Shown here piece after piece: positions 1 through 51,987 of a stretch of DNA of 64,000 nucleotides. The DNA is taken from the NCBI GenBank assembly GCA_017347465.1, contig AP021858.1, forward strand, positions 1,940,472 to 2,004,471. The letters run 5' to 3'. A program made the translations under genes and the position numbers. The DNA is from Candidatus Nitrosymbiomonas proteolyticus (lineage in GTDB: Bacteria; Armatimonadota; Fimbriimonadia; Fimbriimonadales; Fimbriimonadaceae). Every line of letters starts with the position of its first letter. Position 1 is the first letter of the stretch. The notes under the pieces are model-generated. The model saw nothing but the letters and a program-made list of their open reading frames with translations. It was not told the origin of the DNA and made no database searches.

Positions 1-1
1 A

Positions 2-1957
2 GGCGCAGGGATCGATCGATCTGGGACGCGGTTGAGCCTGACCCCTTCTAAGAGCACGAGCTTCTCGCTTTCTGAGACTCGCGTGGGATCGAGCACGGGT
101 GGGGCGAAGCTTCAACAGGCGAGCCTCTCAGTCGGGGCGCTGGGGCTGTCGTTCCGAAAGCAAACGATGGACGACGGGTTCAGTGATCTCTCCCGTCTGA
201 TGCAGTTCGAGCGGATGCAGTGGGGAACCCTCCAGGGCCTCGACCGCACCGACTGGGCAGCAGGTGGCAAGTTCGGTGGGTCTCAGTTCTCGTTCACCAG
301 TCTGACGGCGTCCGCGCCTTCGGGCGACGCCTCGCATCAGGCGCTCAAGGTTTCGAGCGGGCCCTTTGAACTCGAAGCGCATCAACGCGATGTCGATGCC
401 TCGTTCTCGGACGTTCGCCAACTCCTCGACCCGGACAAGGACAACCTATTCGCCCTTCGAGGCTATAAGGAGAGGGACGTACGCGCCAGTTGGGCGATCC
501 TTCCTAACCTTAAGCTGAACGCGTTTCTGCAAGACGGCAAGGCGATCGATTCGGACGAAGAGAAGTACCTGAGAGACTTCCGCCTGTCTTGGACCCCTGA
601 CGCCAACAGCCAAGTCGGGTTCAACGATTTTTCGCAACGAGACGACGATCCGCTGAGGCTGCTTTTTGGCAATAACACGCAGCTTCTCACGCTTACGCGG
701 AAGTTCGGGAGCCTGGGCACCTTCCGCTATGCGCGGGAGACCAAGGACTACGATGGCGAACTGACCGACCTGCCCGATTCGAAGCGCGAGTATGTGGCCG
801 TCGAGACCAAGCTCGACCCCAAGACGACGCTCCTCTCCGAGCAGACCAACACGACCTTTGAGAACGGCGGGAAGGAGAGCGTCAGCACGAATACCGTCAG
901 CACTGAGATCTCGAAGCGCGTCGGAGTCAGCATCAGCGACGTTCAGGTCGAACGAAACGGCGAGCAGCCCGACGAGACCAAGCGGAATTACGGCATGTGG
1001 CTCGACTTTGGCCGAGGCATCCGCCTGAGCTACGGCTACATTCGTAACCTTGCCGACGAGCAGGCCGGAACCCAGCAACAGCAACTCCAAATCACGCCGG
1101 GAACCGTTGGCGGCATTACAGTCGGCCAAGGCCAATACGTGGAGCAGCGATGGGACGGTTTGCGAACCAAGTCGCAGGGCGGGGTCCAGGTGTCCGCATC
1201 CAAGCCCTTTAGCTTGGGGCAGCTTGCGATCAACACGATGAAATTCGGCTTCGACAGCGCGGCAGATCGAGGAACGTGGCTCAAGGAAGACAAGAGTTTC
1301 CAACTGCAAGGAAACCTCTTCAAGAACACGTTTGGCGTCGAGTATCGCGGCCGGATGCACCCGAGCGGCATCCGCGCGATTGACCGCTTGTTCACGTTCG
1401 CTACCGATCAGAGCGAAACGCAGAAGGTTCGAGCCACCCTCGCCTACAAGGTCAGGACCCTGCCGGACGATGAGAACATCATGATCCGGAACTTCAACAT
1501 CGTCGCCAAGCCGTTCAAGGACTTCGAGGTGAGCCACCAACTCCTCACCAATCCCGAAGTCGCCAAGGGCGACGCGCTGCTGGGGACGATCACGCAAGCC
1601 TCGCAAGTGAGCGCGTGGAAGCTGGACTACAAGCGCAGCAAGGACTTCACGATCGGAGCCGAGTGGAAGGAGATCATGGACCCCAAGCGGCCCCTCCTCC
1701 GGACCGCCGGCATCAATCTCGGGCTGTTCGGCTCGAGCGGCTCGCCGCTGTACCTCTACTATGGCCTCGAACAAGCCGACCTGAACGCGGACACTCGCCG
1801 AACGACCCACAGGTATCACCTGAGGTTCGATCAGAAGCCTGGACCAAACCAGATGTTCAGCTTCTTCATCGGAAACGTCAGCTATCAGCACAGCATCATC
1901 GATGGCCAGCCGCGCTCCAACTGGACGCTTCGCCTCGATTACCAACTCCGATTCTAA
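2..1957 (+). CDS. Outer-membrane beta-barrel-like protein, 5' end outside window
   Basis: The frame is open from the left edge and stops at 1955-1957, so the gene begins upstream; about 651 codons are visible. An internal TTG at 32 is not a convincing start. The visible part has no hydrophobic helices. It is built of alternating polar and hydrophobic stretches rich in aromatic and charged residues, and it ends in LDYQLRF. A terminal phenylalanine after such strands is typical of outer-membrane beta-barrels and fits a diderm cell. I do not recognise a family, ligand or partner. A long frame on the opposite strand here is a compositional shadow. The next gene follows after 47 bases on the same strand. 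Confidence 0.7.
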   Translation, partial: GAGIDRSGTRLSLTPSKSTSFSLSETRVGSSTGGAKLQQASLSVGALGLSFRKQTMDDGFSDLSRLMQFERMQWGTLQGLDRTDWAAGGKFGGSQFSFTSLTASAPSGDASHQALKVSSGPFELEAHQRDVDASFSDVRQLLDPDKDNLFALRGYKERDVRASWAILPNLKLNAFLQDGKAIDSDEEKYLRDFRLSWTPDANSQVGFNDFSQRDDDPLRLLFGNNTQLLTLTRKFGSLGTFRYARETKDYDGELTDLPDSKREYVAVETKLDPKTTLLSEQTNTTFENGGKESVSTNTVSTEISKRVGVSISDVQVERNGEQPDETKRNYGMWLDFGRGIRLSYGYIRNLADEQAGTQQQQLQITPGTVGGITVGQGQYVEQRWDGLRTKSQGGVQVSASKPFSLGQLAINTMKFGFDSAADRGTWLKEDKSFQLQGNLFKNTFGVEYRGRMHPSGIRAIDRLFTFATDQSETQKVRATLAYKVRTLPDDENIMIRNFNIVAKPFKDFEVSHQLLTNPEVAKGDALLGTITQASQVSAWKLDYKRSKDFTIGAEWKEIMDPKRPLLRTAGINLGLFGSSGSPLYLYYGLEQADLNADTRRTTHRYHLRFDQKPGPNQMFSFFIGNVSYQHSIIDGQPRSNWTLRLDYQLRF

Positions 1958-14904: not shown

Positions 14905-15078
14905 CTACTCGAACTCGGGATGTTGGAGCGCCGTAGAATGCGGAAGGCCCCTCAGCTTCCCGATCACCGCGCCAGCCCAAAGCTCGCCCGTATCGGCGCG
15001 AAGATCGACATGGGCGTAGAATCTCAACGCCTGAAGGAGTTCGTCAAGCCACCGCCGATTCGGCTTAGGAGTTCTTCG
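14905..15078 (-). pseudogene. Out-of-frame C-terminal continuation of the neighbouring secreted gene
   Basis: A second frame opens inside the end of the 15024-15980 gene and runs to a TAG at 14907-14905. It encodes about 57 residues including RRWLDELLQALRFYAHVD and RADTGELWAGAVIGK. The latter closely resembles the motif RADTGQVWGGYVSGVK in the in-frame part of the same gene. The two segments read as successive copies of one beta-strand module. The natural explanation is a frameshift near 15065-15080 that moved the original C-terminus out of frame. A sequencing error would look the same. Confidence 0.6.
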
Positions 15079-15980
15079 CTAAGCTTCACTCCGCTCACAT
15101 AACCACCCCACACTTGTCCCGTGTCAGCGCGGATGCTGACGTGGTCAAAGAATCCAGGCATGGTGGCTGGTCCAAACCGAACGCGATAGACCAAGCGTGC
15201 TTGATACGGCGCGCGCTGAAAACCTGGTGGGGAGCCATTCCAGCCATTCGGAACCGCATAACCCAGCCCAACTACATCCGCCTCCTCTTTGGTGGCTCTC
15301 AAAGGTCGTCCCTTTTCCGAACAGTAGGAGCTGTACGCGCGCCAAGCAAGATCTTTCGCCTGAGCCTCAGTAACCCGAATCTCCGTAGGTGTCACTTCGT
15401 ATTCACGATCCTGTTCGATCTCGACGATGCGGCCCGTCTCCGAATCCAAACCGATGACCAATTGAGGACCCAACGAATAGAATTGGTAGGGGCCCAAGTC
15501 CGGCTTGAAGTTGGCGAAGTAGTAACCCCAGAGGGACTTCGTCGGGTCGTCCGGATGAAATGCATATCGCATTTTCGCGTTCGGCCATACGCCGAGCTTG
15601 TTTGCAATCGAGCGCAGTTCCATTTTGGCGTCTTCGTCCGACGCGAAATGCCGATGTCCCGTTCGATGAGAGTCCGGCTTTACGTCATGGGAACCATCGA
15701 CTAAGTACAGTCGCACTACGTCTCCAGTTCGGGAGTCGAGAAGAAGACAATAACCACCGGCCACGAAGACCCACTGCCGCCTCTCTCCTCGGTACGTCAT
15801 CATGAACTTGGGGTGCCACTCTGTAAACCCGAGGTTCAGGTCCCTTGCAAGCTGGTTAGCTTTCTGCTGGATGCGCTCGAAAGGCAGGTCGCCGGGTTGC
15901 GGCGTCGCTTCCTCGCCCTGTGGAGCGTGCATCGAGAGACCCACCGATAGCACGGCGATCATCGTTGAAATGGTTATCAT
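15024..15980 (-). CDS. Secreted PepSY/YpeB-like protein, probably frameshifted near its end
   Basis: This 318-residue protein begins at ATG 15980, preceded by GGAGGG. A signal peptide (about 1-20, ending near SMHAPQG) indicates export. The body contains repeated modules of the form D-[ST]-x-T-G-x-[VI]-x-x-[LI], for example LLLDSRTGDVVRLYL, IGLDSETGRIVEIE and SIRADTGQVWGG, which is the pattern of PepSY-like peptidase-inhibitor folds. Similar modules occur in the two proteins at 47862-50343. The in-frame end (LTNSFRR) is unlikely to be native because the other frame continues the repeat pattern. No function can be assigned beyond secreted PepSY-like protein. Confidence 0.6.
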   Translation of the reverse strand: MITISTMIAVLSVGLSMHAPQGEEATPQPGDLPFERIQQKANQLARDLNLGFTEWHPKFMMTYRGERRQWVFVAGGYCLLLDSRTGDVVRLYLVDGSHDVKPDSHRTGHRHFASDEDAKMELRSIANKLGVWPNAKMRYAFHPDDPTKSLWGYYFANFKPDLGPYQFYSLGPQLVIGLDSETGRIVEIEQDREYEVTPTEIRVTEAQAKDLAWRAYSSYCSEKGRPLRATKEEADVVGLGYAVPNGWNGSPPGFQRAPYQARLVYRVRFGPATMPGFFDHVSIRADTGQVWGGYVSGVKLSEELLSRIGGGLTNSFRR

Positions 15981-16107
15981 TGGATCACCCTCCGCCATTG
16001 TAACCCAATGAGCCAAGCGTTACAAGACGTTGTCGGGTTCTGTCGCCCATTCAGTAAGTTGCGTCTTGGCTGGAGTCAAACCCGGCGCAGAGTCGGTGCC
16101 CGGGTGC

Positions 16108-46390: not shown

Positions 46391-46465
46391 CGAGAAGGCA
46401 AGCTCCGGTCGTTCGGTCGGCCGAGTTCCGACCTCGAGGCCGTATTGAAGGGCCGAGAAAGGTGA
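46391..46465 (+). pseudogene. Remnant of a third copy of the shared C-terminal tail
   Basis: Read in the frame ending at TGA 46463-46465, this 75-base stretch encodes REGKLRSFGRPSSDLEAVL and a short basic end. The lipoprotein at 47862-49043 ends EGKLRSFGRPSSELETFL with a similar basic tail. The frame is closed by a TAG just upstream, so only the last ~24 codons remain. Similarity continues a few bases past the stop (TGAGGT..TTACG in both). It marks deletion or recombination at the left boundary of the accessory cluster. Confidence 0.75.
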
Positions 46466-46527
46466 GGTTGTTACGTTTTTTCGCCAAACCTCTTGATGTC
46501 TCTCCTATAACGTGCTAAGGTACTTGC

Positions 46528-47865
46528 ATGAGGTGGAATCGTCTCCTCGCAGGGCTTTGGGCAGTATCCTTGCTACCGGCCGTATGTTTCGGGCAGCAAC
46601 AGCCTCCGTTCAACCAGGCGGGGGTCGGGTACTCGAATTGCGCCCTTGTCATCAGCATCGCTGGTTTCAGCACAAACGACCAGAAGATCAGCGGCACGAA
46701 AGTGGAGTTCACGGCAAAGGCCGAAGTAACGAGGACGATTCCCGAATGGCTCATCCTTGAACCTCCGCCAGGCGGCGTGGAGTTTACGGATGGCTACGTC
46801 TCTGAGATCAGGTTGAAAGTCGGGGGGCAAGAACTGCTGCACCTCTCGGGTCTTTCTCCGGAGACGAAGTCGGTCCAGCGTGCGGTTCGCTTCTCTTCGA
46901 CGCACTTTCCTCATGGATCGAGCGTGGTCATCGAACTCTACGGAAAAGCGATCCTCGAGCGCAATGAAGGCGAAAGCTCGATTGTGGAACGCACACTTCG
47001 GGTGCTCCTATCCCCATACAACACTGCAATAGCGCTTGGTACGGTAGAGGAGTTTCTGGACCAACTGGATCCGCCACACTTCTCGAAGCCGGGCGACCCT
47101 GACTATCCTGGGAATCCGCCCTACGCGTCCATGGCGGCGCTGGCCACGCAAGCGATAATCCCAATTCTCACTGGTCAGTCCATGAACCATGTCATGGTTG
47201 AGGGCAATGGCACTGGAACCGATTGGCGGGAATCAACCGGCCCTGCGAGATTGGATGTACGACTCAGTCAGGCAACCCTGATGTTCGCATGTACGCACGG
47301 CTCAAGTACGCATTGGCGATCGTCCAAGTCAGATGAGCTATATTACTTTGGGTTGGAAAACGAGGTCGCAACTTACGTCAGCACCGGATTTGGCGAACCG
47401 CGACCTCCTCGAGAAGTTCCGGAATACAACCTGGCGGTTTTTCACGCTTGCGAAACTCTCAGCACCCAGAGTTCAAACTTCAATCCCAAAGCGTTTCGGC
47501 TACTCCCTCTCGCGTACCCGAACCCCGCGTCGGTCTACCAGAACAAGGGATACGCCGGATTTGCGAACCTTGTCTATTACGAACTCATTCAGCCAAGTGG
47601 CCAGACGCTGGATAGACACGCTGCCACGTTGTTCCAGTTCTTGGCTTCCGGCCACAGGTTGCAGCATGCTTTGAACTTGACCCACGGGGACGATCCCGAT
47701 GTTGAAACACAGCCTTATTGGCCTCGAAGTAGAAACGCAGGAACGCTCATGAGAATGATCGTACGAGGAGATCCGCACACACGTCTTGTGAACGTCTATT
47801 TGAGTGCGAGCGAATGGCTTGCTAATGCGTCAGATCGAGATAGCTGGTTTTGGATATTGCCATGA
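46528..47865 (+). CDS. Secreted caspase/CHAT-like (clan CD) protein
   Basis: This 445-residue protein has a signal peptide (about 1-23, ending CFGQQ) and an N-terminal beta-rich domain (about 30-175). A region about 200-420 has the layout of caspase-like folds: TLMFACTHGSS with H257, then after 48 residues LAVFHACETLS with C308, then KGYAGFANLVYYEL and AATLFQFLASGHRLQHALNL. The ACET box and the trailing FxxxLxxG...AL pattern are those of CHAT and related clan CD peptidases. H257 and C308 would be the catalytic dyad. The ATG has TAAGG upstream. It overlaps the following lipoprotein gene by ATGA, so the two are coupled. Confidence 0.65.
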   Translation: MRWNRLLAGLWAVSLLPAVCFGQQQPPFNQAGVGYSNCALVISIAGFSTNDQKISGTKVEFTAKAEVTRTIPEWLILEPPPGGVEFTDGYVSEIRLKVGGQELLHLSGLSPETKSVQRAVRFSSTHFPHGSSVVIELYGKAILERNEGESSIVERTLRVLLSPYNTAIALGTVEEFLDQLDPPHFSKPGDPDYPGNPPYASMAALATQAIIPILTGQSMNHVMVEGNGTGTDWRESTGPARLDVRLSQATLMFACTHGSSTHWRSSKSDELYYFGLENEVATYVSTGFGEPRPPREVPEYNLAVFHACETLSTQSSNFNPKAFRLLPLAYPNPASVYQNKGYAGFANLVYYELIQPSGQTLDRHAATLFQFLASGHRLQHALNLTHGDDPDVETQPYWPRSRNAGTLMRMIVRGDPHTRLVNVYLSASEWLANASDRDSWFWILP

Positions 47866-49043
47866 CAGTGAGCTTCACGCTTGCAATTGCTTTCATGGGT
47901 TGCCAGTCCCCGGCGCTTTCGCTCGGCGAAGGCGAGCAACTCGCGCGGGCCTTCACGGAGCGTGCCAGATTGGGAAGATTGGGAGCCGTGGCGGGAGATG
48001 CTAGTCCCCTCGTTCTGCGGTCTCGCAGGGTGCTTCCCGGTGGCGGTTCGGCGGTTTACGAACTGGGATCGGCCAAGGTTCGGGTGGACCTGATCCGTCG
48101 TTCCATCGCTTCGTTTACAGAGGATTTCAGCGGAGTGGATCTGGTGTGGAGCGAGAGCGAGCGGATGGGCGAGCAGGAGTTGGAGTCGCTCGCGACGGAA
48201 CTCCTTCGGGTTGCGGGGATCAGCGGCCGAGCCGTAGTTCATCATGTCGACCTCTACGGGAGCAACGGTCCCGAGGGATCCATATGCGCTCACGCCCTGC
48301 CGACCTCAGCAGGCATTCCATTTGCCTACGACTGGGCGGTTCTCCTGACGGTGGAGCACAGGTCGGGCAGGCTGTACCAGCTAACGCGCCTGAATCCGGA
48401 CCTTCCCGAGCCTCCGCCACTCGCGACCCCCGCCCTCAGTCCTGCCGCCGCGCGCCTCACGATGGCCTCGGAAATCCTGGTGGCTCGCCCGCAGGTCGCC
48501 CTTCTGGCGGCCGCGAAGGACGCGAAACTGGTGTTCTGGGCGCCAAGGGGCGCCGATTCCTTTGCTGTGAACCGATTAACCGAAGCGCAAGCCCAGATGG
48601 GCCGCGAGAACAAGGCGCTTCTTGCGTATTGGGCTTACTTCTTGGCGGAACCGCTTTCTCCCCATGAACCCGGGCCGGCGTTCGAGGCGTTCTTGGACGC
48701 CCGCACAGGTCGATTGCTCGCCATTAACGCGTTCGAAGGGCCTTGGGCTGGCGAACCTGGGGGTGCAGTTCCTCGGCCCTTCGGCTGGGACCTGGGGCCG
48801 GGTCCGCTGACCATCACCTTGGGAGGCAAGACTTATGAACTTTCCAGCGCGGACGTGCTAAAGGTGCAGCAGGGATCCCCTAACGAACCGGGGGTGCCGG
48901 TCCTGCTCCAGCGCGCCCGCCTGATCCTCAACGCGCTCTACTACCCCAAAGCCAACCTGCTCTCGGTGGGCGAAGGCAAGCTCCGGTCGTTTGGGAGGCC
49001 AAGTTCCGAACTCGAGACTTTTCTGAAGCGCAGAAAATCATGA
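47862..49043 (+). CDS. PepSY-like lipoprotein with shared C-terminal tail
   Basis: This 393-residue protein starts at an ATG overlapping the caspase-like gene's stop by four bases. The N-terminus MTVSFTLAIAFMGCQSP has a lipobox-like FMGC, so it is probably a lipoprotein. Two or more PepSY-like modules follow, such as WAVLLTVEHRSGRLYQL and FEAFLDARTGRLLAI. The last ~90 residues begin PFGWDLGPGPLTITLGG and are identical over ~72 residues with the end of the protein at 49144-50343. Function unknown. The neighbouring protease-like gene invites an inhibitor, substrate or partner role, since PepSY domains are named for protease inhibition. Confidence 0.65.
   Translation: MTVSFTLAIAFMGCQSPALSLGEGEQLARAFTERARLGRLGAVAGDASPLVLRSRRVLPGGGSAVYELGSAKVRVDLIRRSIASFTEDFSGVDLVWSESERMGEQELESLATELLRVAGISGRAVVHHVDLYGSNGPEGSICAHALPTSAGIPFAYDWAVLLTVEHRSGRLYQLTRLNPDLPEPPPLATPALSPAAARLTMASEILVARPQVALLAAAKDAKLVFWAPRGADSFAVNRLTEAQAQMGRENKALLAYWAYFLAEPLSPHEPGPAFEAFLDARTGRLLAINAFEGPWAGEPGGAVPRPFGWDLGPGPLTITLGGKTYELSSADVLKVQQGSPNEPGVPVLLQRARLILNALYYPKANLLSVGEGKLRSFGRPSSELETFLKRRKS
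48777..48998 (+). repeat. Shared tail module, copy A
   Basis: Near-identical to 50071-50292. The first 101 bases are identical, and only five mismatches occur in the first 214 bases; all five are synonymous. Upstream of the module the two genes have clearly diverged. Confidence 0.9.
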
Positions 49044-49143
49044 GGTCCTTACGAACTTTCCACAACCCATTCCTGCCCATGAGGTTCGGCAATCTGAGCA
49101 CATAATGGAAGGAATATGACCTCTCAGGAGAAGAAACAGCGAC

Positions 49144-50343
49144 ATGGTATCTCATAACGTCCTAGCTTTAGTAGCGGCGCTTTCTGTCCACGGAAACGTA
49201 GCGCAGGAGATTTCGGAAGCGCAGGCCCGTCAAATCGCGCTCTCGTTTGCCCAATTCGTGAATAGCGATCAGTATGGAGCTTCGATTGTAGAAGACTTCG
49301 TGGGACGCGTGGAGTTTACAAGACGAGCTGGAGGTACATGGGGCATATCTGGCGACAAGTACCACGTCTCAGTCAATCAGTCGAATGGCAGGGTTCAGTT
49401 CTATGAGGCATCGGCTCCACCGCATATCCAGTGGGCCCCCGTCAGCAATCCACGGTTCTTGATCGACGACGCGCTGTGCCTTTCGATTGCCCAGGCAGTG
49501 TATCGGCGGGCAGGCTTCTCTGAGACGCTGGTCTTGGATCAACGCATCGACCTTCAGCCTGAGTTCGGATTTTACGGCATCGAGGCTCGCTTTGTGCGGA
49601 TGGCGGGTGACGTCGAAATCGACGCTTCGCTCGACGTGATGTTCGGGTACCACGCGACCTCGGGCCAAGTTCTCGAAATGCGCGTGATGCCCGATCCGAT
49701 TCTTCCGCCTGTCCTGACTCCGCGAATCTCCCTCCAGGACGCTCGGAGAATCGTGATGGGGGCAGTTGCCCGTTATGCGACTCACCTAATACTCTCCGAG
49801 TCTGAGTGGAGGCCACTAAGGCTAAGGGCTGTGCTTCCTTTCGATACGGACTATCTCTACGAGGATTTCCCCTTCGATCGACGAGCGTACGAAAGGGAAT
49901 GGCGCACGATCCTCGCTTACGATGTTGCACTTGAGGAGGAGAGCCAGCCGCCTTATTTCTTCTCAGGCAGAAAGCCCAGTTGGAGGGTAATTGTAGACGC
50001 TATCACGGGAAAGTTACTGGCGGTAGCTCCGCCTGGCAGATCAATTGGGGCTTCGAGGAAGAAGCCCGTTCCCTTCGGCTGGGACCTGGGGCCGGGTCCG
50101 CTGACCATCACCTTGGGAGGCAAGACTTATGAACTTTCCAGCGCGGACGTGCTAAAGGTGCAGCAGGGATCTCCTAACGAACCGGGGGTGCCGGTCCTGC
50201 TCCAGCGCGCCCGCCTGATCCTCAACGCGCTTTACTACCCCAAGGCCAATCTACTCTCGGTGGGCGAAGGCAAGCTCCGGTCGTTCGGTCGACCCGATGA
50301 GGAACTGAAGAAAGCCCTGTTGGCCTTGGCCGCAAAGGAATAG
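49144..50343 (+). CDS. Secreted PepSY-like protein with shared C-terminal tail
   Basis: This 399-residue protein has a signal peptide (about 1-20, ending NVAQE). A PepSY-like start, ISEAQARQIALSFAQF, leads into modules KYHVSVNQSNGRVQFYE, ASLDVMFGYHATSGQVLEM and WRVIVDAITGKLLAV. The tail from PFGWDLGPGP onward is the same as in the upstream lipoprotein. The body shares only the general module pattern with it. It lies 100 bases downstream and has AGGAG about 12 bases before the ATG. A strong symmetric hairpin follows its stop. Function unknown. Confidence 0.65.
   Translation: MVSHNVLALVAALSVHGNVAQEISEAQARQIALSFAQFVNSDQYGASIVEDFVGRVEFTRRAGGTWGISGDKYHVSVNQSNGRVQFYEASAPPHIQWAPVSNPRFLIDDALCLSIAQAVYRRAGFSETLVLDQRIDLQPEFGFYGIEARFVRMAGDVEIDASLDVMFGYHATSGQVLEMRVMPDPILPPVLTPRISLQDARRIVMGAVARYATHLILSESEWRPLRLRAVLPFDTDYLYEDFPFDRRAYEREWRTILAYDVALEEESQPPYFFSGRKPSWRVIVDAITGKLLAVAPPGRSIGASRKKPVPFGWDLGPGPLTITLGGKTYELSSADVLKVQQGSPNEPGVPVLLQRARLILNALYYPKANLLSVGEGKLRSFGRPDEELKKALLALAAKE
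50071..50292 (+). repeat. Shared tail module, copy B
   Basis: Direct repeat of 48777-48998 at an offset of 1294 bases. Divergence increases sharply in the last 10 bases, where the two genes end differently. Confidence 0.9.
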
Positions 50344-50457: not shown

Positions 50458-51837
50458 TCAGTAGCGGTAGTAGCTACTGCCAAACGCCGTGATCTCGTAG
50501 CCTCGACCTGACTCGCGCAGGCGGTATTCGTGATACACCGAATCGGATCGCCCCCAAGGGTCCACGAAATCGTGCCTTGCGACTATTTCGACCTCACCTC
50601 GGTTCCTCCGAACGCTGGCGATGTTGTATTGGCGCGTATCGGACTGGTAGATGTTGTCGAGCATGAGCTCGTAGAAGGCGTCGGAATCCATAGAATAGGC
50701 GTACCGGCCGTCGATCAAGATGTCCACTCGGCTGCGCAACGGAACGAGTCGGCTGATCGCCCTACGGTCCTGCCGCTCGAACGCGTCCACAAGGTCCTGA
50801 ATGGCGTAATCGAGATCGTTGTAAGAGTAGTAAGACGAATAGCTCCTGATAGGCCTCCAAGTGTAATACGAACCTTGGAACGGCCCTAGGTTAATCGTCA
50901 GAATCGTCACGTATTGGCGGTTCACATATCCCGGAAGGTAAGGATAGTAGTACCAAGGTGAGATGTGGCAAACTGTCTGATAGGGATTGAACACATAGTG
51001 CGGGAACCAGAAGTAGTCGTCGCACCAACCCCGATCATAGTGATAGTACCCTACCCTTATGGGAGAGTTTCGCACTGCCCGGACCTTCTCTTCCCGAAGC
51101 ACCTGATTGGCGAGCGAGCCTGAGAACACGTCGATCGGCGCGCGGTTCAAGACGTTGGCATCGGGGCGCGAGGCCTGAGTGATCAGGTTGTTGTTCGAGC
51201 CGTAGTTGCGTCCGTCGTTGCGGATTCGTCCCGGAGGGTTCACGGTCTGGTTGCCCGTATTGGCTCGATCAGCGTCGTTTCGAACTGGCGGCCGCTCGTT
51301 CTGGTTGCCGGTCTTGCCGTCATTTCTCGAAGGGGGCGGCGCGGTGCGGGTCGGCGGGTCCTGTCGACTGGGAGGCGGGGTTTGTCTGCTCGGAGGAGGC
51401 GTTTGCCTTGAGGGGGGAGGCGTCTCCCGAGCGGGCGGTGGAGTCTGCCGAGCAGGGGGCGGCTCTTGCTTCCCTGGCGGCGGGGTTTGCCTTGCGGGCG
51501 GCGGGGTCTGTCGGCTCGGAGGAGGCGTTTGCCTTGAGGGGGGAGGCGTCTCCCGAGCGGGCGGTGGAGTCTGCCGAGCAGGGGGCGGCTCTTGCTTCCC
51601 TGGCGGCGGGGTTTGCCTTGCCGGTGGTGGGGTCTGTTTACTCGGCGGAGGGGTTTCTCGCGCAGGTGGAGGCGCCTGCCGCGAAGGAGGCGGTTCTTGC
51701 TTGCCCGGAGGCGACGACCGTTGAGGGGGCGCCTCTCGGGTCGGTGGTTTCCGACTCGGCGGGTCGTCCGCGATCGCGAGCGAAAGTCCAAGAATCCCAG
51801 CAAGGGAAATCGTGCCTAATCTACGAATCCACATCAT
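50458..51837 (-). CDS. Secreted proline-rich repeat protein
   Basis: This 459-residue protein has a signal peptide (about 1-23, ending LAIADD). A low-complexity region (about 25-175) follows, built of PPPxRxT and PPPxKQ units. At DNA level it contains a 126-base tandem duplication. A globular C-terminal part (about 230-459) is rich in tyrosine, with GYYHYDRGWCDDYFWFPHY and WYYYPYLPGYVN, and ends FGSSYYRY. Such Pro-rich stalks usually span envelope or wall space. The ATG at 51837 directly follows a GGGGCAAG site. I recognise no family for the C-terminal domain. Confidence 0.65.
   Translation of the reverse strand: MMWIRRLGTISLAGILGLSLAIADDPPSRKPPTREAPPQRSSPPGKQEPPPSRQAPPPARETPPPSKQTPPPARQTPPPGKQEPPPARQTPPPARETPPPSRQTPPPSRQTPPPARQTPPPGKQEPPPARQTPPPARETPPPSRQTPPPSRQTPPPSRQDPPTRTAPPPSRNDGKTGNQNERPPVRNDADRANTGNQTVNPPGRIRNDGRNYGSNNNLITQASRPDANVLNRAPIDVFSGSLANQVLREEKVRAVRNSPIRVGYYHYDRGWCDDYFWFPHYVFNPYQTVCHISPWYYYPYLPGYVNRQYVTILTINLGPFQGSYYTWRPIRSYSSYYSYNDLDYAIQDLVDAFERQDRRAISRLVPLRSRVDILIDGRYAYSMDSDAFYELMLDNIYQSDTRQYNIASVRRNRGEVEIVARHDFVDPWGRSDSVYHEYRLRESGRGYEITAFGSSYYRY
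51401..51652 (-). repeat. 126-bp tandem duplication inside the proline-rich gene
   Basis: The unit starting GTTTGCCTTG at 51401 recurs at 51527. The first ~95 bases of the two units are identical. The length is a multiple of three, so the reading frame is preserved and 42 residues are added. Confidence 0.85.
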
Positions 51838-51987
51838 CTTGCCCCTGCGCGCCTCGCCAGTTGGCGTTGCGCTTCTTACAGTGTACAACCATTCGACGCG
51901 CTTTCCCGCCCAGAGTTACCGCGAGGTAAGGGGGTCCCAGCATCCCCTACAGGAAGAGTCCCGAATTTGCCAACATGGAGAGTGTCT

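Follow-up and report, generated by a model that had tools for sequence, protein, structure and literature searches.

CHAT and caspase-like proteases of bacteria have mostly been described as cytosolic components of defence and cell-death systems. PepSY domains, which in the propeptides of M4 proteases also aid folding, have long been suspected of being broad inhibitors, and we know of no clear cysteine-protease partner for them. CHAT-type proteases require tight control, namely, autoinhibition in Craspase and securin for the related separase (PMC9729208), and PepSY has been proposed to serve as an inhibitor in cis or in trans (PMC2954215). In the SleB-YpeB system of Bacillus, an exported enzyme and a PepSY-repeat partner are encoded in one conserved operon, and YpeB is thought to keep SleB inactive (PMC13393411).

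The window analysed here, a stretch of 64,000 nucleotides of the genome of Candidatus Nitrosymbiomonas proteolyticus (Armatimonadota), contains a pair of similar organisation, in which the gene of a putative exported enzyme is followed by that of a PepSY-like protein (Table 1). Unlike SleB, which is a peptidoglycan lytic enzyme and is not CHAT-like, the enzyme of the window appears to be a CHAT-like cysteine protease. Each component of the pair is of a known kind, and their combination has no description in the literature searched. Neither a CHAT and PepSY pair nor PepSY in Armatimonadetes was found there (mostly without subscription journals), and the top ten literature matches for clan CD with PepSY were all without PepSY.

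Table 1. Features of the protease-partner locus in the window (protein parts are given in residues; G135 is the comparison genome introduced in the text)
Feature	Coordinates	Strand	Basis or remark
Fossil 3' end of lost upstream partner gene, 74 bp	46392..46465	+	98-100% identical to G135 upstream partner
Upstream region of protease gene, near-identical in G135	46466..46527	+	Alignment, identity profile
Putative secreted CHAT-like (clan CD) cysteine protease, 445 aa	46528..47865	+	Sequence, profiles, partial model
Signal sequence of protease	residues ~1-23		Hydrophobic N-terminus
Ig-like beta-sandwich domain of protease	residues ~35-166		Only moderately confident part of AlphaFold2 model
CHAT-like domain of protease	residues ~195-445		Profile alignment and conserved boxes
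Codon of putative catalytic H257 (THG box)	47296..47298	+	H in 56/56 relatives
Codon of putative nucleophile C308 (HACET box)	47449..47451	+	C in 55/56 relatives, S in one
PepSY-like secreted partner A, 393 aa	47862..49043	+	ATGA overlap with protease gene
Tail common to A and C, copy 1	48777..48991	+	Homogenised within each genome
Probable fossil, 3' end of second lost protease gene before C	49064..49143	+	Weaker local alignment
PepSY-like secreted partner C, 399 aa	49144..50343	+	PepSY E 1.4e-4; family profile
Tail common to A and C, copy 2	50071..50285	+	Divergence from G135 ends here

The protease and its catalytic domain

The product of the protease gene starts with an N-terminal hydrophobic signal sequence, as the initial annotation had it, and the CTHG (residues 255-258, H257) and HACET (residues 306-310, C308) boxes pointed out there lie at the given places, with the stated 51 residues between H257 and C308. 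The trailing FxxxLxxG...AL pattern is present as FQFLASGHRLQHAL, and the ATGA overlap with the next gene is real (47862-47865).

With the single sequence as query, relatives of this protease were found in 13 of 291 Armatimonadota genomes, and a 12-row profile search revealed them in 46 of the 291 (or in 35 of the 194 high-quality genomes). The final set comprised 56 divergent Armatimonadota ORFs with complete catalytic domain, down to about 25% identity. Conservation of the two boxes in relatives, which had been proposed as a check of the protease assignment, was far beyond chance: H257 is found in 56/56, C308 in 55/56, and G258 in 54/56 of these ORFs. In the first, smaller alignment H221, T256, H257, G258, and C308 were invariant, as were the H, G, and C columns of an intermediate set of 27 relatives (27/27 each). 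Two residues that (almost) never vary at about 25% identity are most simply explained as a catalytic dyad, and the protease is probably active. The exception to the Cys conservation is the first protease copy of an array in genome G119 (L104 3068-4480), where the NMALLMASWTG sequence places MASWTG, with Ser-Trp, at the position of the Cys box, and which is probably a dead copy. An N-terminal hydrophobic stretch was found in 37 of the 56 protease ORFs, the starts of some of which are uncertain. At two loci (L022 and L053) the protease is encoded by two overlapping ORFs, split where the beta-sandwich part meets the catalytic one, which may represent a frameshift, a fault of the assembly or a protease that really consists of two chains.

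Searches with the window protease alone gave no match in Pfam, NCBIfam, PADLOC or PDB sequences. Among 13 family members CHAT (PF12770; Caspase HetF Associated with TPRs) was matched once, with E 0.023, and none passed the Pfam gathering score. As no Pfam model scored the window protease, 19 bona fide CHAT domains were collected from relatives and built into a profile, to which the family profile was aligned with the use of hhalign. The probability of the match was 94.6% (P 7e-8) for an earlier set and 97.2% (P 4.3e-11) for the 56 members; THG fell on THG, C on C, and the following F..L..G...A helix was in register. Control alignments with reversed sequences and with the partner family gave 0.1% each. 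With both boxes in register, the CHAT/clan CD relationship suggested initially is borne out at the profile level, and the catalytic domain is very probably CHAT-like.

The AlphaFold2 model of the protease, based on two sequences, has a mean pLDDT of 33.3, with the catalytic region mostly at 20-40, and the fold comparison concerns the beta-sandwich part only, where the best Z of 5.8 corresponds to a generic Ig-like arrangement. The window protease resembles CHAT proteins in its H-G and C boxes and in the trailing helix, which is common to its family, but differs from them in the lack of a Pfam CHAT match and of recognised TPRs and in having a PepSY partner. No Pfam TPR match was found in the window protein or in the 13 members, and a beta-sandwich is predicted for the N-terminal part. 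The spacing of the putative catalytic residues (51 residues) is also similar to that between H585 and C627 (42) in the TPR-CHAT of Craspase (PMC9729208). In contrast to cytosolic CHAT proteins, the window protease has a signal peptide and an Ig-like domain, which suggest that it is secreted rather than cytosolic. In this respect it resembles gingipains (Peptidase C25), which are also secreted clan CD proteases with HG and C boxes, but Pfam C25 matches neither the window protein nor any protein of its own genome. Profile alignment of the family to a single C25 sequence gave 0.9%; CHAT against C25 itself gave only 0.1%, so that this comparison has little power and a C25-type relationship is still conceivable. 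One relative (L086) has a bona fide C25 protein.

PepSY-like partners and their pairing with the protease

The next two genes were initially annotated as encoding secreted PepSY-like proteins with a shared tail, which agrees with their signal-like hydrophobic starts, with a tail that is near-identical over 215 nt, and with a sub-threshold match of partner C to Pfam PepSY (E 1.4e-4, 22.5 bits, just below the cut-off of 24). Partner A did not match Pfam PepSY. The membrane anchor postulated for them is absent from both window partners; among the partners of other loci, at least four have a C-terminal transmembrane segment. An N-terminal hydrophobic stretch was found in 43 of 46 partners. Pfam PepSY (PF03413) was matched by 11 of 22 partners (best E 1.4e-4), and YcdB/YcdC by 2 of 22.

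The 22-row partner profile used as a query against PDB matched the PepSY part of pro-elastase (LasB) with E 5e-4, a PepSY/M4 propeptide entry with 0.005, and the Mcp02 propeptide with 0.03. The partners are thus similar to the PepSY/FTP propeptides of M4 metalloproteases. However, while the latter act in cis, the PepSY repeats described here form a separate protein, encoded beside a cysteine protease. The AlphaFold2 model of the partner (4 sequences, mean pLDDT 39.9) is of low confidence; it is suggestive of three units, each of helix plus sheet, which is the pattern that PepSY repeats should show. One more PepSY-like ORF of 330 aa is located in the window at 15024-16016 (minus strand); it matches the partner profile with E of about 1e-11 and has no protease relative nearby.

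A PepSY-like partner (E <1e-3) is encoded directly downstream and on the same strand in the case of 46 of the 56 proteases, as counted with a partner HMM that was seeded with some downstream neighbours, so that the seeds are not independent. Genome-wide matches that were not among the seeds are also located at protease or protease-remnant loci, e.g., in G208, G072, G076, G086, G141, and G221. Protease and partner ORFs overlap in 29 of the 46 pairs, most often by 3-45 nt. Seven more of the 56 proteases are followed by an ORF of similar size (310-430 aa), and a recognised partner is absent in 10 of the 56. The partner is immediately downstream in all 14 of the 14 best protease matches. Genome G104 contains three protease-partner pairs in a row, and G119 contains four alternating pairs in tandem. 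The recurrence of the gene neighbourhood expected from the initial annotation therefore concerns the protease-PepSY pair, which is found across Armatimonadota, and does not extend to the three-gene order of the window, which is not a conserved unit; the third gene of the window is a second partner left by rearrangement. Values of dN/dS within the family (0.13-0.40) indicate that the products have been selected as proteins, and the protease and its PepSY partner almost certainly form a functional unit.

The occurrence of the unit was examined in Armatimonadota, in IMG/VR, in phage and plasmid collections, and in one close-relative scan of GTDB genomes. No relatives of the protease were found in IMG/VR, and the plasmid and phage collections gave no match. 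A match of the pattern VRFASTHF in IMG/VR was discarded as due to chance, as there is no homologous ORF there. PADLOC models assigned none of the three window proteins to any family (0 families). The motif AAACCTCTTGAY, considered as a shared promoter element, was rejected, since it has a single site in the genome.

Allele exchange, gene fossils and protease loss

A genome called the same species as that of the window (G135; CP054189, Chthonomonadaceae bacterium H1_ARM1) differs from it sharply at this locus. While the flanks are 97-98% identical, the amino acid identity is 37% for the protease and 77% for partner A, and the order of genes is protease-A-C in the window and A-protease-C in G135. 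The two sequences are about 100% identical as far as the region of the protease start codon; within 300 nt the identity then drops to 40-60%, and it rises again in the tail of C. The dS values in this island are 0.8-1.6 (about 1.6 for the protease), compared to 0.06 in rho. Rapid positive selection as the source of the allelic divergence was rejected, as dS is very high too; high dS together with dN/dS of 0.13-0.40 points to an exchange of old, selected alleles.

Two gene fossils accompany these alleles. The alignment of window positions 46392-46540 to L019 7520-7668 has a score of 294 (shuffled maximum 36), and that of 49064-49166 to L019 8775-8877 has a score of 46 (shuffled maximum 29). Another reading frame of the second, probable fossil ends with ...SGEETATW, comparable to ...SAEEGTTTW of G135. 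An ancestral array such as A-protease-A-protease-C, from which different genes were deleted in each lineage, would explain the gene orders and the fossils of both genomes. At a second locus, where G135 has two intact protease-partner pairs, the genome of the window (L100 8629-12979, C1:1401000 region) carries a truncated PepSY partner together with an ISL3-like transposase, a small ORF, and an ORF of 707 aa whose tail is Rhs-like. Downstream of the locus, at 50458-51888 (minus strand), a secreted protein with a long proline-rich repeat of PPPxRxT type is encoded, which is of 476 aa in the window and of 427 aa in G135, with a different repeat length.

An intact partner stands beside a deleted or truncated protease gene at seven or more independent loci (L101/L103, L117, L119, L137, L138, L141, and L143). 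The clearest case is L117, where the last 33 codons directly follow those of the signal peptide and of the beginning of the sandwich domain, with the overlapping start of the partner retained; the last protease codons were probably kept because they carry the start signals of the partner. The remnants at L101 4976-6663 and L103 3595-5291 are orthologous, encode 158-161 aa, and lack both catalytic boxes, with the partner intact. Since they occur in both same-species genomes, this loss predates their split. As L101/L103 and L137 come from single-contig genomes, they are unlikely to result from assembly errors. The observed losses fit an ability of the partner to outlive its protease, or they may reflect recent decay.

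Proposed mechanism and alternative explanations

A secreted CHAT-like cysteine protease controlled by a co-translated PepSY partner that acts in trans is, judging from sequence and genomic context, a fairly likely explanation of the pair. The protease, comprising a signal peptide, an Ig-like beta-sandwich, and a CHAT-like domain with the H257/C308 dyad, would be exported, as would the separate PepSY-repeat protein made together with it, usually from an overlapping start. Acting as a propeptide in trans, the partner would bind to the protease and hold it inactive, or assist its folding, until it is needed outside the cell. We infer export, protease activity, direct binding, and inhibition, and a role of the partner as a direct inhibitor seems somewhat likely. 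Tight one-to-one matching of the two proteins is not seen, since the partners are the less variable of the two and, in the G119 array, do not follow the proteases.

PepSY homology cannot tell an inhibitor from a chaperone. The partner could therefore be a foldase, a chaperone with a stabilising function or part of a permanent complex, and the protease could act constitutively, e.g., in nutrition or envelope turnover. The folding role of PepSY propeptides of M4 proteases, the higher conservation of the partner than of the protease, and its translation immediately after the protease are consistent with such a function. However, the intact partners beside lost proteases are unexpected for a dedicated chaperone, unless the losses are recent, and we consider this explanation possible but unlikely.

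The swapping of alleles makes it attractive to regard the pair as a polymorphic toxin-like system, in which the protease would be an effector against neighbouring cells and the PepSY protein would provide immunity. Apart from the replacement of alleles between same-species genomes, the likeness to polymorphic toxin-immunity loci includes tandem copies, orphan second genes, gene fossils, and a conserved N-terminal part followed by a more variable enzymatic domain, as seen between two copies of the G119 array, which share 89% identity in the N-terminal domain and 62% in the catalytic one; the membrane anchors of partners in several genomes are also consistent with it. In contrast to those loci, no known delivery or trafficking domain or secretion apparatus was found alongside, PADLOC gave no match, and the enzyme varies more than its partner. 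The G119 partners are 73-80% identical where the proteases are 48-74% identical, the two are not congruent, and copy 1 is an outlier among the proteases and not among the partners. Similarly, the second gene of the window does not co-diversify with the first in comparison to G135, and the high dS there indicates old alleles exchanged rather than accelerated protein evolution. An immunity function in this sense is unlikely on these grounds. A tentative extension of control in trans is that the pairs are exchangeable extracellular protease-inhibitor modules, in which a PepSY "trans-propeptide" doubles as self-protection and swapped alleles serve strain competition; we give it a low probability. 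If true, it would represent a secreted, caspase-like counterpart of toxin-immunity loci, a class without earlier description.

A partner that is the substrate of the protease, like Csx30 or the gasdermins for other CHAT and caspase-like proteases, and that is released by cleavage as a signal or an effector would have a precedent in the cleavage of the dedicated partner Csx30 by TPR-CHAT (PMC9729208), and the C-terminal anchor of some partners is a site from which an ectodomain could be released. We find this improbable, as the partners consist of PepSY-type repeats with relatives among propeptides and have no obvious pore-forming or effector domain, and no conserved cleavage motif is apparent in their alignment. 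That the proteins are diversifying surface or secreted proteins which have lost protease activity and act in binding or adhesion, as the array copy without cysteine could suggest, is very improbable, given that the Cys and His are retained (55/56 and 56/56) while their surroundings diverge to about 25% identity.

Returning to control in trans by the PepSY partner, this two-gene unit, which recurs, is duplicated, decays, and is swapped in the little-studied Armatimonadota, suggests an unstudied extracellular system of a protease and its control, in which a secreted CHAT-like branch is tied to PepSY proteins. The tandem arrays, swapped alleles, the probably dead copy, and partners without protease are natural experiments with the unit. 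The unit is simple, consists of two overlapping genes present in many Armatimonadota, and makes PepSY inhibition in trans directly testable with two recombinant proteins. A reversed arrangement occurs in G021 (L123 473-5326), where a protein of 1063 aa, the C-terminal part of which contains a PepSY-partner region, is encoded directly upstream of a protease of the family.
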